Shown here: piece after piece, positions 9,962-21,275 of the stretch
Layout of the letters: the number at the start of each line of letters is the position of its first letter
Position numbering within the stretch: position 1 is the stretch's first letter
From: Dysosmobacter sp.
GTDB lineage: Bacteria > Bacillota > Clostridia > Oscillospirales > Oscillospiraceae
Assembly (NCBI GenBank): GCA_026169195.1
Contig: JAPFEH010000051.1
Coordinates: 1 to 64,000, forward strand
Direction: 5' to 3'
Length of the DNA stretch: 64,000 nt
Position numbers and translations under genes: made by a program
The notes under the pieces: generated by a model
What the model was told of the DNA's origin: nothing
Databases searched by the model: none
The model's input: only the letters and a program-made list of their open reading frames with translations

Positions 9962-9993
9962 AAACACCAGCCTGTTGGCTGGTGTTTCTTTTT
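9962..9993. terminator. bidirectional terminator next to attL (original tRNA operon terminator)
   Basis: An 11-bp stem AAACACCAGCC/GGCTGGTGTTT with a TGTT loop is flanked by CTTTTT on the plus strand and TTTTT on the minus strand. Before integration of the element it would have stood directly after the tRNA-Cys 3' end. Confidence 0.85.
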
Positions 9994-10015
9994 GGAGGTG
10001 ACACCCGGATTTGAA
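9993..10015. repeat. attL, 23-bp copy of the tRNA-Cys 3' end
   Basis: TGGAGGTGACACCCGGATTT plus GAA is identical to 21201-21223, the 3' terminus of tRNA-Cys including the CCA complement. Bases on both sides of the 23 bp differ between the two copies. Confidence 0.92.
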
Positions 10016-10142: not shown

Positions 10143-10565
10143 TTAATTAGCACAAGATGCAGATTTCTCCTCACCTTTTTTTACGGCATCCTCGACCATT
10201 TGCGCAATATTCATCGCTGGCAATACAACAGGTTCTACTTCTGGCTGCGCAGTTAACAGAGAAATTTGACTTCTGATATAAGGAAAGACAATCGCAACTG
10301 CATTTTGCTGAATAATGGTCTTGCGATCCTCAACATGATCCTCTAAACGAAAGTAGCCTGATGCTCTTACCACAAAGGTATATTCATCTTCCTTTGTTCC
10401 AATTACACGAATGCTAGCAACAAATTCTCCATTTTCGCGTTCTTCAAAATTGAAGCCAAATTCGACGCTTAAATCGTTTTCGCTCCTAAAGTTAACACGG
10501 TTAAACGCTATTTCATCAAACACTAAATGATCTAGCTTTAATACGCAGTTATTCTCTGCATTCAT
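10143..10565 (-). CDS. SecB-like chaperone (toxin-antitoxin-chaperone type)
   Basis: This 140-residue protein resembles the SecB export-chaperone family. It has the beta-strand N-terminal half (LKLDHLVFDEIAFNR ... VEFGFNFEE). The diagnostic C-terminal block is QNAVAIVFPYIRSQISLLTAQPEVEPVVLPAMNI, matching the SecB FPYaR..I..L......P.L.LP.VN pattern. Gram-positive bacteria lack a housekeeping SecB, and such solitary homologues are typically dedicated chaperones of an antitoxin. It is third in a three-gene minus-strand unit behind a TacT-like GNAT and an unknown protein. AGGAG lies 7 nt before the ATG. Base composition is clearly more AT-rich than the host. Confidence 0.8.
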   Translation of the reverse strand: MNAENNCVLKLDHLVFDEIAFNRVNFRSENDLSVEFGFNFEERENGEFVASIRVIGTKEDEYTFVVRASGYFRLEDHVEDRKTIIQQNAVAIVFPYIRSQISLLTAQPEVEPVVLPAMNIAQMVEDAVKKGEEKSASCAN

Positions 10566-10594
10566 AGCAAAACTCCTAACGTTGTCTGATTATA

Positions 10595-10978
10595 TTATGC
10601 GGCTCTAACTCTTTCATCCGGCCCAAGAGGATAATCAGAATGAACTTTTCTGCTATCAACTATACTTTTCGATTTTAACAAGGCTGACTGAACTTCTGCT
10701 GAATTTAGGAGAAAAGCCTTAACGTCTAATGAGATCGAACAAAGGAATTCCTTTGCCGGACTGTATACGTCCTTTGGACTTAGCAGCGAAGAAATATCAA
10801 TATCTGGTATATCTTCCACTAAATCCGTCCCGTCCACGCGGCAAGATAGTTCTTCCCTAATTCTCATGAAAAAAGAATCTCTACGCTCTAGAGATTTAAT
10901 ATCGGGACGCATCGCCTTTTCAAAAAAAGTCTGCGCTTCACCATGCTTTAACAAAATTCTGCATCCATACACACCCAT
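10595..10978 (-). CDS. uncharacterised protein, candidate antitoxin of the GNAT/SecB unit
   Basis: I do not recognise this 127-residue protein. It is charged, with a hydrophobic start (MGVYGCRILLKHGEAQTFFEK), a mixed helical middle, and a polar C-terminal tail (SIVDSRKVHSDYPLGPDERVRAA) that looks disordered. In toxin-antitoxin-chaperone modules the antitoxin sits between toxin and chaperone and has an unstable C-terminal chaperone-addiction segment. Position and tail fit that role, but no DNA-binding motif is evident. It starts at the ATG at 10978, 12 nt after the GNAT stop, with GAGGTG 6 nt upstream. A GTG three codons earlier is the alternative. Confidence 0.6.
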   Translation of the reverse strand: MGVYGCRILLKHGEAQTFFEKAMRPDIKSLERRDSFFMRIREELSCRVDGTDLVEDIPDIDISSLLSPKDVYSPAKEFLCSISLDVKAFLLNSAEVQSALLKSKSIVDSRKVHSDYPLGPDERVRAA

Positions 10979-10990
10979 ATAATTCACCTC

Positions 10991-11509
10991 TTAAACCTGC
11001 GAATTGACATATCTTTCTGCCACAGCCTTATCAATAAAATCAATTCGCATAGGAATTGTGCCAAGATATCTCAAGTCTTCCCTTTTAGGGTATTCTTCAA
11101 ACCCTGCATCTAAATACCACTGTTGCTTATCATCAAGCGCATCAATAACCAAAAATCTGATTGGCAAGTTCCTTGAAAGTTTTTCCGCATCAGACATAAG
11201 CCTAGTCAATACGCGCTTGCCTATCCCCATCTGCTGTACGCGGGTATCAATCGCAATATACGATATTTCAAATGCAATATATTCTTGGTCCGTCACATAG
11301 TATTCTTCATTTTCATCACAAAGCCACACAAGCCTGATCATGCAATTTCCAACTAGATGTCCATCAACCAAGATATTATATGCTAAACCTTGCTTGCACA
11401 GCGTTTTGCTATACGCATCCTTAATTCGATCATCAATACTCCGAATGCCGCACGATATAGAATTAGGAGGAATATCCTCTGTCATAACAGTAAGTCGTAA
11501 TTCTGACAT
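10991..11509 (-). CDS. GNAT acetyltransferase, TacT-like toxin candidate
   Basis: This 172-residue GNAT-fold protein has an acetyl-CoA pyrophosphate loop at residues 92-98 (QQMGIGK). It then has LSRNLPIRFLVIDALDD and WYLDAGFEEYP (Tyr132), closely matching the layout of TacT toxins that acetylate aminoacyl-tRNA. It is the first gene of a unit with an unknown protein and a SecB-like chaperone, 12 nt from its neighbour. The ribosome-binding site is weak (GAGG about 15 nt upstream). It could instead be an ordinary small-molecule acetyltransferase; the genetic context favours a toxin. Confidence 0.75.
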   Translation of the reverse strand: MSELRLTVMTEDIPPNSISCGIRSIDDRIKDAYSKTLCKQGLAYNILVDGHLVGNCMIRLVWLCDENEEYYVTDQEYIAFEISYIAIDTRVQQMGIGKRVLTRLMSDAEKLSRNLPIRFLVIDALDDKQQWYLDAGFEEYPKREDLRYLGTIPMRIDFIDKAVAERYVNSQV

Positions 11510-11792
11510 TTATTTTATCACAGCCTCGAAAACGAGAATTTGCTTGATCCGTTTAGTAATCGTACATCATTTTTTTGAGATTTTCAATAGATACTGCTGA
11601 TTTTATAACTACGATATAATCTTTTTGTCAATAGTTTCTCTTAATGGTTTCTGAATCTTTAAGCGATTTCTATTTGATCCTTAAATAATGTATTTATACG
11701 TTTAGAAAAATATATTTAGTAATACTGCACCTTCCTCCCACTAATATCCAATAAAATTGCACGTCTATGTGCAACTCATCTCAATAAAATTT
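11510..11792 (-). other. AT-rich upstream region of the GNAT/SecB-like unit
   Basis: No gene is supported here. The minus strand carries a promoter, TTGACA (11626-11631), 18-nt spacer, TATAAA (11602-11607), leaving a leader of about 85 nt before the GNAT start. The rest is AT-rich sequence with no clear repeat. Confidence 0.6.
11602..11631 (-). promoter_or_regulatory. promoter of the GNAT/unknown/SecB-like unit
   Basis: Consensus -35 TTGACA and -10 TATAAA with an 18-nt spacer on the minus strand. Confidence 0.65.
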
Positions 11793-11814
11793 GCCGGGGA
11801 TGTTACTCCCCGGC
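11783..11814 (-). terminator. terminator of the small-gene operon
   Basis: Stem GCCGGGGA/TCCCCGGC (11793-11800 with 11807-11814) is followed on the minus strand by AAATTTTATT. It lies 8 nt after the stop of the last small gene. The RelE operon terminator at 13816 has the same stem. Confidence 0.75.
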
Positions 11815-11821
11815 CTTCTGT

Positions 11822-13144: not shown

Positions 13145-13348
13145 ATGGGCGATAAATACACGGACGCACAGAAAAAAGCGTCTATCAAGTATCTGAAAGA
13201 AAAAACCGACAGCATACAAATTCGGACGCAAAAGGGGACTAAGGATCGGTGGAAAGATGCCGCTGCCGTGCGCGGAAAATCCCTTAACCAGTTCATTGTT
13301 GATACGATGGAAAATGAAATTTCTGAAGGAGGTGCCAATATTGTCTAA
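13145..13348 (+). CDS. ribbon-helix-helix DNA-binding protein
   Basis: This 67-residue basic protein has an Arc/MetJ-type pattern: a beta strand TDSIQIRTQKGTKDR followed by KDAAAVRGKSLNQFIVDTMENE. It probably represses its own operon through the three upstream repeats. AAGGAGG lies just before the ATG, and its stop overlaps the following gene. Confidence 0.75.
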   Translation: MGDKYTDAQKKASIKYLKEKTDSIQIRTQKGTKDRWKDAAAVRGKSLNQFIVDTMENEISEGGANIV

Positions 13349-13559
13349 CCGTGAAAAATGTATAGCGATCCTTGACAGCTTCACGGAAATACAGCTTGCC
13401 AATATCGCAACGCTGTTACAGGCTGCGAAAGACGCTATTGTAGAGGCCACGGACGACGCTTTTTGCAATGCGCTGTATGAGGATTACAAGTCGGATCCGG
13501 ACAAGGGGCAGGCAGTCAGTCTGGAAGATGCTGCAAAGGCTCTGGGGGTGTCGCTGTGA
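13341..13559 (+). CDS. antitoxin partner of the RelE toxin
   Basis: This 72-residue acidic protein (LSNREKCIAILDSFTEIQLANI ... VSLEDAAKALGVSL) has the size, acidity and C-terminal EDAA..LGV.L pattern of antitoxins paired with RelE-type toxins. It starts at a TTG (13341) preceded by GAAGGAGGTG and overlaps both neighbours. A longer in-frame start has no ribosome-binding site. Confidence 0.7.
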   Translation: MSNREKCIAILDSFTEIQLANIATLLQAAKDAIVEATDDAFCNALYEDYKSDPDKGQAVSLEDAAKALGVSL

Positions 13560-13807
13560 CTTATAGGATCGTCATTGAAAAACCCGCCATGAAGTTCCTG
13601 CAAAAACAACCACAAGCACAGCGGGAGCGGATTTTAAGGGCCATACAGGGTCTCCCAGACAATGGGGATATAAAATCATCCATGAGCGGCCACGAAAACC
13701 TTTACAGGCTTCGCATAGGCTCTTACAGGGTGATTTACACCATAGAGGACGATTTACTCATTGTACGAGTGTTGACCGTTGGCAACCGCGGAGACGTCTA
13801 TAAGTAA
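13556..13807 (+). CDS. RelE/ParE-family toxin
   Basis: This 83-residue protein has the RelE fold sequence: YRIVIEKPAMKFLQKQPQAQRERILRAIQGLP, then LYRLRIGSYRVIYTIEDDLLIVRVLTVGNRGDVYK. The basic R..R.YRV.Y core and terminal GNRGDVYK are those of ribosome-dependent mRNA interferases. It starts at a GTG that overlaps the antitoxin stop. Confidence 0.9.
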   Translation: MTYRIVIEKPAMKFLQKQPQAQRERILRAIQGLPDNGDIKSSMSGHENLYRLRIGSYRVIYTIEDDLLIVRVLTVGNRGDVYK

Positions 13808-19746: not shown

Positions 19747-19849
19747 AAATCCGCCCCCGGTGCGGTCACACCGGGGACGGCTATAAGGGCAGTAAACTTT
19801 CCTACAGCCTACTGCCCTTCCATCATATACGAAAATGGGAGGAATTGCA

Positions 19850-21100
19850 ATGCCAAGAAAAAGTAATACCAGAGCCGCACAGGGATCAGGGAGCATCCGG
19901 CAGAGATCAGATGGAACATGGGAGGCTCGCTTTGTTGTGGGACACGATTCAGGGACAGGCAAACCAATTCGCAAATCTATATACGCCAAAACGCAGAAGG
20001 AAGTCCGGCAGAAATTAGCTCAGGCAGTTGCCGCCGTTGACAACAAAGCATACAGAGAACCTTGCAAAATGACTTTGGGGGAATGGCTGGATATATGGGC
20101 AGATACATACTTGAACGGCGTAAAGCCCCGGACATCGAAGATATACAGGGATGACATCCGACTGCATATCAAGCCTTATCTAGCCGCGATCCGTCTGGAC
20201 GAGCTGAACACTCACACGGTTCAGGAATTCTTAAACACGCTGGCAACCAAAGGGAAGAAAACTCCAATGCGGGATGATTGCAGAAAAATTATAAAGAAGG
20301 ATGGTAAAACTGTATACAACTTTGCCCCCCTCTCCCCAAAGACCGTTAAAAACGTTCATGGCGTCTTGCACAGTGCACTTAGGCAGGCAGTTATCAATAA
20401 ATACATTCCTATGAATCCTGCAGACGGGGACTTCTGCACACTCCCAAAAATCGAAAAACAGGAGATCAACCCCCTTGACGAGCCTCAGATTGCTGCCTTT
20501 TTAAAGGCTATTCAAGGAAACGAGTACGAAGACATTTTCATTGTGACGCTGTTTACAGGGATGCGGGAAGGTGAGGTGCTGGGCCTCACTTGGGACTGTG
20601 TAGACTTCGACCACGGCATTCTACGGATTAACAAGCAGATGCAGCTCCATCAGGAAAAGGGCATGAACGCCTACCAGCTTGTTCCCGTCAAGAACAGCAA
20701 GAATCGGACCGTGACCGCCGCACCATTCGTGATGACACAACTGCGGCGCCACAAAATATCTCAGGCAGAACAGAGGCTTCGTGCAGGGGCATTATGGCAG
20801 GCAAGCAACCTTGTCTTTACCAATGCCGTTGGCGGACATATAACAAAGCCAACACTGTACCGATCCTACAAAAAAGTTGTTGCCTCTATCGGCAGACCAG
20901 ATGCCCGTTTCCACGATCTCAGGCACAGTTATGCCGTTGCTGCAATCCGCTCCGGTGATGATATCAAAACCGTACAAGGCAATCTGGGCCATGCCACCGC
21001 CGCCTTTACTCTGGACGTTTATGGACACGTCACCGATCAGATGAAGCAGGACAGCGCCAGCCGCATGGAGGCCTTTATCAAGAGTGTTTCCGGTTCCTGA
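19850..21100 (+). CDS. int: tyrosine-type site-specific integrase
   Basis: This 416-residue integrase has an N-terminal AP2-like arm-binding domain (GSGSIRQRSDGTWEARFVVG...). A SAM-like core-binding domain (about 65-180) precedes the catalytic domain with TGMREGEVLGLTW (Arg), HDLRHSYA (His-Leu-Arg), LGHATAAFT (His) and DVYGHV (catalytic Tyr). The ATG at 19850 follows GGGAGG by 7 nt. It lies 100 bp from the att copy in tRNA-Cys, as expected for tRNA-targeting integrases. Confidence 0.96.
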   Translation: MPRKSNTRAAQGSGSIRQRSDGTWEARFVVGHDSGTGKPIRKSIYAKTQKEVRQKLAQAVAAVDNKAYREPCKMTLGEWLDIWADTYLNGVKPRTSKIYRDDIRLHIKPYLAAIRLDELNTHTVQEFLNTLATKGKKTPMRDDCRKIIKKDGKTVYNFAPLSPKTVKNVHGVLHSALRQAVINKYIPMNPADGDFCTLPKIEKQEINPLDEPQIAAFLKAIQGNEYEDIFIVTLFTGMREGEVLGLTWDCVDFDHGILRINKQMQLHQEKGMNAYQLVPVKNSKNRTVTAAPFVMTQLRRHKISQAEQRLRAGALWQASNLVFTNAVGGHITKPTLYRSYKKVVASIGRPDARFHDLRHSYAVAAIRSGDDIKTVQGNLGHATAAFTLDVYGHVTDQMKQDSASRMEAFIKSVSGS

Positions 21101-21200: not shown

Positions 21201-21223
21201 TGGAGGTGACACCCGGATTTGAA
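21201..21223. repeat. attR, within the tRNA-Cys 3' end
   Basis: This 23-bp sequence is identical to 9993-10015. The element restores a complete tRNA gene at this junction. Confidence 0.92.
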
Positions 21224-21275
21224 CCGGGGAATGAGAGTTTTGCAGACTCTTGCCTTACCACTTGGCTATGTCACC
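21201..21275 (-). tRNA. tRNA-Cys(GCA)
   Basis: The cloverleaf folds with acceptor GGTGACA/TGTCACC, anticodon loop CTGCAAA (GCA) and an encoded CCA. Its 3' end is the integration site of the satellite. Confidence 0.97.

Follow-up and report, generated by a model that had tools for sequence, protein, structure and literature searches.

Organization of the locus

The DNA analyzed here, a stretch of 64,000 nucleotides from Dysosmobacter sp. (assembly GCA_026169195.1, contig JAPFEH010000051.1, positions 1 to 64,000; hereafter the window), contains three minus-strand open reading frames (ORFs) in the order GNAT acetyltransferase, middle protein and SecB-like protein, separated by gaps of 12 and 29 nt (Table 1). 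They probably form a toxin-antitoxin-chaperone (TAC) module whose usual toxin is replaced by a TacT-like GNAT. Such a module had been put forward in an earlier reading of this DNA (the original prediction), and the three tightly spaced genes are found at exactly the places claimed, with all the motifs quoted for them. The ATG at 10978 lies behind AAGAGGTGA and is the favored start of the middle gene, a longer choice being the GTG at 10987 (130 aa, 10987-10595).

The unit is AT-rich, as had been claimed: its GC content is 0.39, compared with 0.59 for the 10 kb to its left and 0.49 for the remainder of the carrying element. As for the TTGACA promoter ascribed to it, the hexamers are indeed there (TTGACA at 11631-11626 and TATAAA at 11607-11602, with an 18-nt spacer), but the promoter scan gave no support: it omits this site, since its rule demands a second hexamer that ends in T, reports a weaker one at 11587-11559, and shows no excess over shuffled sequences (4 found versus a mean of 5.8). 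The site is therefore considered a possible promoter only. No gene of the ribbon-helix-helix (RHH), DUF1778 or TacA type lies next to the trio, there being no minus-strand ORF of at least 50 aa within 11510-11821 and no Pfam match for the middle protein.

Table 1 Features of the trio and of the element that carries it (positions in the window)
Feature	Position	Strand	Basis or detail
GNAT toxin candidate	10991..11509	-	172 aa; coenzyme A (CoA) loop VQQMGIGK; Y132 in WYLDAGF
Middle protein, proposed antitoxin	10595..10978	-	127 aa from ATG 10978; no family match
SecB-like (CmdC-type) chaperone	10143..10565	-	140 aa; Pfam, PADLOC and solved-SecB matches
C-terminal R-A-A of middle protein, ClpXP-degron-like	10598..10606	-	Tail comparison with CmdA LAA
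Possible promoter TTGACA-18-TATAAA	11602..11631	-	Absent from promoter scan; 92 nt before GNAT start
attL, 23-bp copy of tRNA-Cys 3' end	9993..10015		Repeated at 21201-21223
attR, 3' end of tRNA-Cys (21201-21275)	21201..21223		Repeated at 9993-10015
Tyrosine integrase of trio-bearing element	19835..21100	+	Pfam PF00589 7.3e-21

Conservation of the trio in other genera

When 300 genomes of the family were searched with the window GNAT, five were matched at E<=0.001, namely the window's own, Pseudoflavonifractor sp. An44 (G066), G151 and two weak ones; these weak matches (L004 and L005) lie, by eye, in sensor-kinase-like and MATE-like ORFs and were rejected. A three-row GNAT profile recovered 3 of the 300 family genomes (E<=1e-5) and 2 of 394 genomes of the order (E<=1e-6), every match lying inside a GNAT-middle-SecB trio. 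Conserved linkage had been chosen beforehand as the main point on which the original prediction could fail, and it holds: all three family genomes found with the profile carry the trio in order, the two besides the window's belonging to two other genera of the family.

The settings differ, with an integrative element in the window, a bare cassette in An44 (GC 0.43-0.44, the ORFs around it having 0.57-0.65), and a trio of GC 0.43-0.46 adjoining prophage-like ORFs (by eye) in G151, where the GNAT gene is cut by the contig end. Recurrence in two other genera indicates more than chance. A small-molecule GNAT that merely happens to lie beside a solitary SecB-like gene, an explanation already disfavored by the linkage, is extremely improbable: although SecB-like genes do occur alone (of the 32 places surveyed below, 14 have no upstream toxin-antitoxin (TA)-like pair by eye, and a further one, L020, lies at a contig start and is unjudgeable), the order, close spacing and low GC are kept in three genera despite identities to the window of 29 and 23% for the GNATs and 19 and 18% for the SecBs. 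Scans of viral contigs with each window protein and with A4 gave no relatives.

The GNAT protein and its relatives

The window GNAT scores 21.2 bits with Pfam Acetyltransf_1 (cut-off 20.7), and in alignment its Y132 falls on Tyr145, the catalytic residue of KacT. Among the best eight rows of a GNAT profile search against the PDB, seven are named as toxins (7byy, KacT twice, GmvT, AtaT twice and AtaT2), and the eighth is 6ajn, which we take to be AtaT. No match was obtained to any of the PD-T4-9_A (ADP-ribosyltransferase, ART) models.

In tblastn searches, one plasmid (E<=0.01) and no phage were matched by the window GNAT, and one phage and five plasmids (E<=1e-3) by that of An44. A DUF1778/TacA1 (RHH) gene lies directly upstream of the GNAT in four of the seven plasmid and phage relatives, three being recognized by annotation (two of them also confirmed by Pfam, the E. 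coli one unscanned) and the Vibrio one by Pfam; the remaining three have a short upstream gene without RHH match in Pfam, and in none of the seven is a SecB annotated within 2-2.5 kb of the GNAT. The description of the protein as TacT-like is borne out in that it is closest in sequence to toxins of the KacT/AtaT type in the PDB profile search and has relatives behind RHH antitoxin genes. Judged from these comparisons, the trio GNAT belongs among the TA GNATs, but without an RHH partner and first in its operon.

Its toxicity and its tRNA target would follow from the family. GNAT substrates vary widely, and while the protein keeps the CoA loop and catalytic Tyr of GNAT-RHH toxins, its fold is common to non-toxin GNATs too, the fold comparison failing to separate toxins from N-terminal acetyltransferases. 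This leaves room for a three-gene defense or stress unit whose GNAT effector acts on a protein or another non-tRNA target, the middle protein and the chaperone still being in control, and a GNAT TA system of this kind may be seen in PacTA, which by the title of its report obstructs DNA binding by Fur (PMC9561280). Such a target is nonetheless rather unlikely, given that GNAT TA toxins rank first in the sequence profile search and that RHH antitoxins precede the GNAT in more than half of the relatives.

An ordinary TacT could also be paired with the TacA1-like RHH protein encoded on the other strand of the same element (13145-13348; Pfam TacA1 7.2e-5, above cut-off), in which case the middle protein and SecB would be a separate antitoxin-chaperone remnant. 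However, this RHH gene lies 1.6 kb off, on the opposite strand and beside a ParE/RelE-like toxin (13556-13807), and was rejected as the GNAT antitoxin on these grounds; moreover, RHH genes are directly upstream of the GNAT in the relatives, and none is found by eye next to the An44 and G151 trios. The pairing is thus very improbable.

Distribution and lineages of the SecB-like chaperone

The assignment of the third protein as SecB-like is solid, resting on a PADLOC PD-T4-9_C match (2e-17) and on the match of an 8-row SecB profile to solved SecB (2.5e-8), alongside a Pfam SecB score of 26.5 bits versus a cut-off of 26. Searches with profile A1 found matches in 13 of 394 genomes of the order (E<=1e-3) and in 15 of 291 of the class (E<=1e-5), and a search with the single window protein found them in 6 of 300 genomes of the family; together with G151 this makes 32 distinct genomic places. 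Reading of the upstream ORFs identified a GNAT at three of these places, an ART at three and a protein of a WWLY..AD type at four (one divergent, by eye), while HigBA-like genes at six and an MqsA-like gene at one were recognized by eye.

ART genes precede a SecB of the window's family in four loci, including the phage record L006 (PD-T4-9_A, E 3.6e-8 to 1e-3), whose SecB is 60% identical to that of the window. In a 17-row chaperone tree the window SecB pairs with this ART-linked protein (99/98) and the other two GNAT-linked SecBs pair with each other (95/93), which implies either that at least two chaperone lineages have served GNAT modules or that re-assembly gave the window unit an ART-type chaperone. 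The chaperone lineage is exchanged between GNAT and ART modules. The GNAT label is not clustered on the tree beyond chance (122 of 500 shuffles were as low), as expected if parts are exchanged, and exchangeable parts also fit the movement of addiction segments between TAC antitoxins by Bordes et al., described in passages of their paper (PMC5105189). Besides L006, SecB hits fell in the phage and plasmid records L007, L008, L009 and L052, in which no GNAT was found upstream.

The middle protein and its C-terminal tail

The middle protein had been described as unrecognized, and it has no match in the Pfam, PADLOC, NCBIfam and PHROGs family libraries and no relatives in phages, plasmids or the PDB. 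It is homologous to its counterpart in G151 (BLASTP 6e-9; z 12.8). For the An44 protein such homology is not detectable (z 2.5; no BLASTP alignment), which speaks against a common TAC module, and the comparison is weakest here. Two of the four ART-linked middle proteins were compared with the window protein, and neither is similar to it (z -1.0 and -0.1), but the G151 protein reached z 4.1 with one of them, 1 of 28 pairs tested.

The middle proteins of all three GNAT trios end in alanine, the last residues being RAA in the window and KSA and HCA in the two counterparts. Of the 18 proteins encoded upstream of a TA-linked SecB, 12 have a C-terminal Ala (GNAT 3/3, ART 4/4, W type 4/4, HigA/MqsA types 1/7), against a background of 3 of 57 window ORFs, the middle protein among them, and 5 of 127 ORFs of at least 150 aa from the window and the fetched loci. 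For the GNAT, ART and W types, with the seven HigA/MqsA-type loci left out, 11 of 11 are Ala-ended (p 8e-13 versus background). An aromatic residue 11-14 positions from the C-terminus, found in 8 of 11 tails versus a background of 34% (binomial p 0.0098, position chosen afterwards), was not used as evidence. The structure model of the middle protein (pLDDT 35) is uninformative on the candidate chaperone-addiction segment. According to passages of the CmdTAC paper, CmdA, like other TAC antitoxins, ends in the ClpXP recognition sequence LAA (PMC11618068). From gene position and alanine C-terminus, the middle protein is proposed as the antitoxin.

Comparison with known systems

As in TAC systems, a SecB-like chaperone is encoded with the pair, and the three genes are co-directional and close, with conserved linkage. 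The toxin-antitoxin-chaperone order is that of CmdTAC (PD-T4-9: ART CmdT, antitoxin CmdA and SecB-like CmdC), to which the window unit is also linked by the PD-T4-9_C match of its chaperone and by the Ala-ended tail that its antitoxin candidate shares with CmdA, whereas its toxin candidate is a GNAT and CmdT an ADP-ribosyltransferase. HigBA-SecB TACs (HigBAC, Rv1955-1957 type) are likewise tripartite with the SecB-like chaperone last, but their antitoxin is a helix-turn-helix (HTH) protein, and the window middle protein has no HTH match in Pfam. They differ further in their toxin, a HigB ribonuclease (PMC9098466). With TacAT, KacAT and AtaTR the window GNAT shares an N-terminal CG motif, the CoA loop and the catalytic Tyr, but the trio differs from them in that it has no upstream RHH/DUF1778 gene, places the toxin first, adds a SecB-like chaperone and has an antitoxin candidate without RHH match.

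The known partners of GNAT toxins are DUF1778 (RHH) antitoxins (PMC9177977). In passages of the papers concerned, the TAC toxins named are ribonucleases and an mRNA ADP-ribosyltransferase (PMC11618068), and SecB-associated TA systems often belong to different families (PMC4257090). No description of a GNAT toxin with a SecB-like chaperone was found in the open literature at the level of titles and abstract starts, Mets et al. 2024 and Sala et al. 2013 being outside this scope. The words 'GNAT' and 'acetyltransferase' are absent from the main texts of PMC11618068, PMC4257090 and PMC5105189, and where a paper mentions GNAT as well as TAC or tripartite TA, its passages treat the two apart. The novelty of a GNAT-toxin TAC is limited to the literature so covered.

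Proposed mechanism

If the trio works as a TAC module, the GNAT would, as its family suggests, acetylate charged tRNAs using acetyl-CoA and so stop translation, and the middle protein would bind the GNAT and hold the toxin off. By analogy with CmdTAC and other TACs, the SecB-like chaperone would bind the C-terminal tail of the middle protein, and without chaperone ClpXP would read the alanine-ended tail and destroy the antitoxin. A trigger, probably a phage protein, may draw the chaperone off, upon which the toxin would be freed and the infection aborted. The chain set out for CmdTAC in passages of PMC11618068 is that the chaperone stabilizes the antitoxin, a phage capsid protein competes for the chaperone, ClpP removes the antitoxin and the toxin acts, and E. 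coli HigBAC is activated by the lambda major tail protein, as reported in passages of PMC11980606. CmdT is reported to be highly toxic with CmdA but not by itself (PMC11445053), so the GNAT, too, may be silent on its own. That the trio's GNAT is toxic and acetylates tRNA, and that the unit depends on its chaperone and senses phage, we infer from the GNAT family and from such systems.

A broader view, for and against which the case seems to us evenly balanced, is that SecB-like chaperones are exchangeable phage sensors, one lineage having been wired both to ART and to tRNA-acetylating GNAT warheads via antitoxins that are unrelated and have nothing in common but an alanine-ended tail to which the chaperone binds; the window unit would then be a natural sensor-warhead hybrid, leading from phage sensing to charged-tRNA acetylation. 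A GNAT under SecB control would add tRNA acetylation to the chaperone-gated weapons, and the window chaperone, paired with a GNAT while its close kin is paired with an ART, provides a natural test of whether sensor (chaperone) and effector (toxin) can be swapped.

The integrative element and other TAC-like units

The attL-proximal position claimed for the trio is borne out by the 23-bp tRNA-Cys repeats (Table 1), which delimit an 11.2-kb integrative element at tRNA-Cys, the trio beginning 128 bp from the attL copy. In the part of the element ORFs that was scanned, the genes besides the integrase encode a CI-like repressor, an HTH_17 protein, proteins resembling a primase/helicase and RusA, and one that weakly matches the terminase small subunit. 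By this content the element looks like a phage satellite, possibly of the kind of phage-inducible chromosomal islands (PICI-like). It carries a second TA module, all on the plus strand, made up of the TacA1-like RHH protein (13145-13348), a short protein and the ParE/RelE-like toxin (13556-13807).

In a genome of the same genus (G210; L075, G210:C22:74500-91500), these 23-bp tRNA-Cys repeats enclose another element, 12.7 kb long, in which an integrase-like ORF is recognized by eye, so the tRNA-Cys site has been used more than once. An empty att site was looked for in this relative and not found, the flank gene lying on another contig and tRNA-Cys being occupied by the other element.

The L006 record (MT837118.1), an unannotated human gut phage scaffold, has a CmdTAC-like ART-antitoxin-SecB unit at L006:3855-5235. 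CmdTAC-like units are also present in three family genomes (L078:6690-7925, L076:4093-5407 and L077:4589-5773), their toxin and SecB ORFs having a GC of 0.35-0.50, and the L078 unit belongs to the An44 genome, as its second TAC. Another TAC-like unit (L011:418-1896, L019:327-1911, L033:325-1881 and, on the reverse strand, L037) consists of a WWLY..AD protein of 133-188 aa, an AA-ended protein of 203-236 aa and a SecB-like gene, the L033 copy stopping inside the motif. The small proteins of this unit have no Pfam match (L011 and L019) and no PHROGs or NCBIfam match (L011, L019 and L033), and the WWLY..AD protein is possibly an undescribed toxin.
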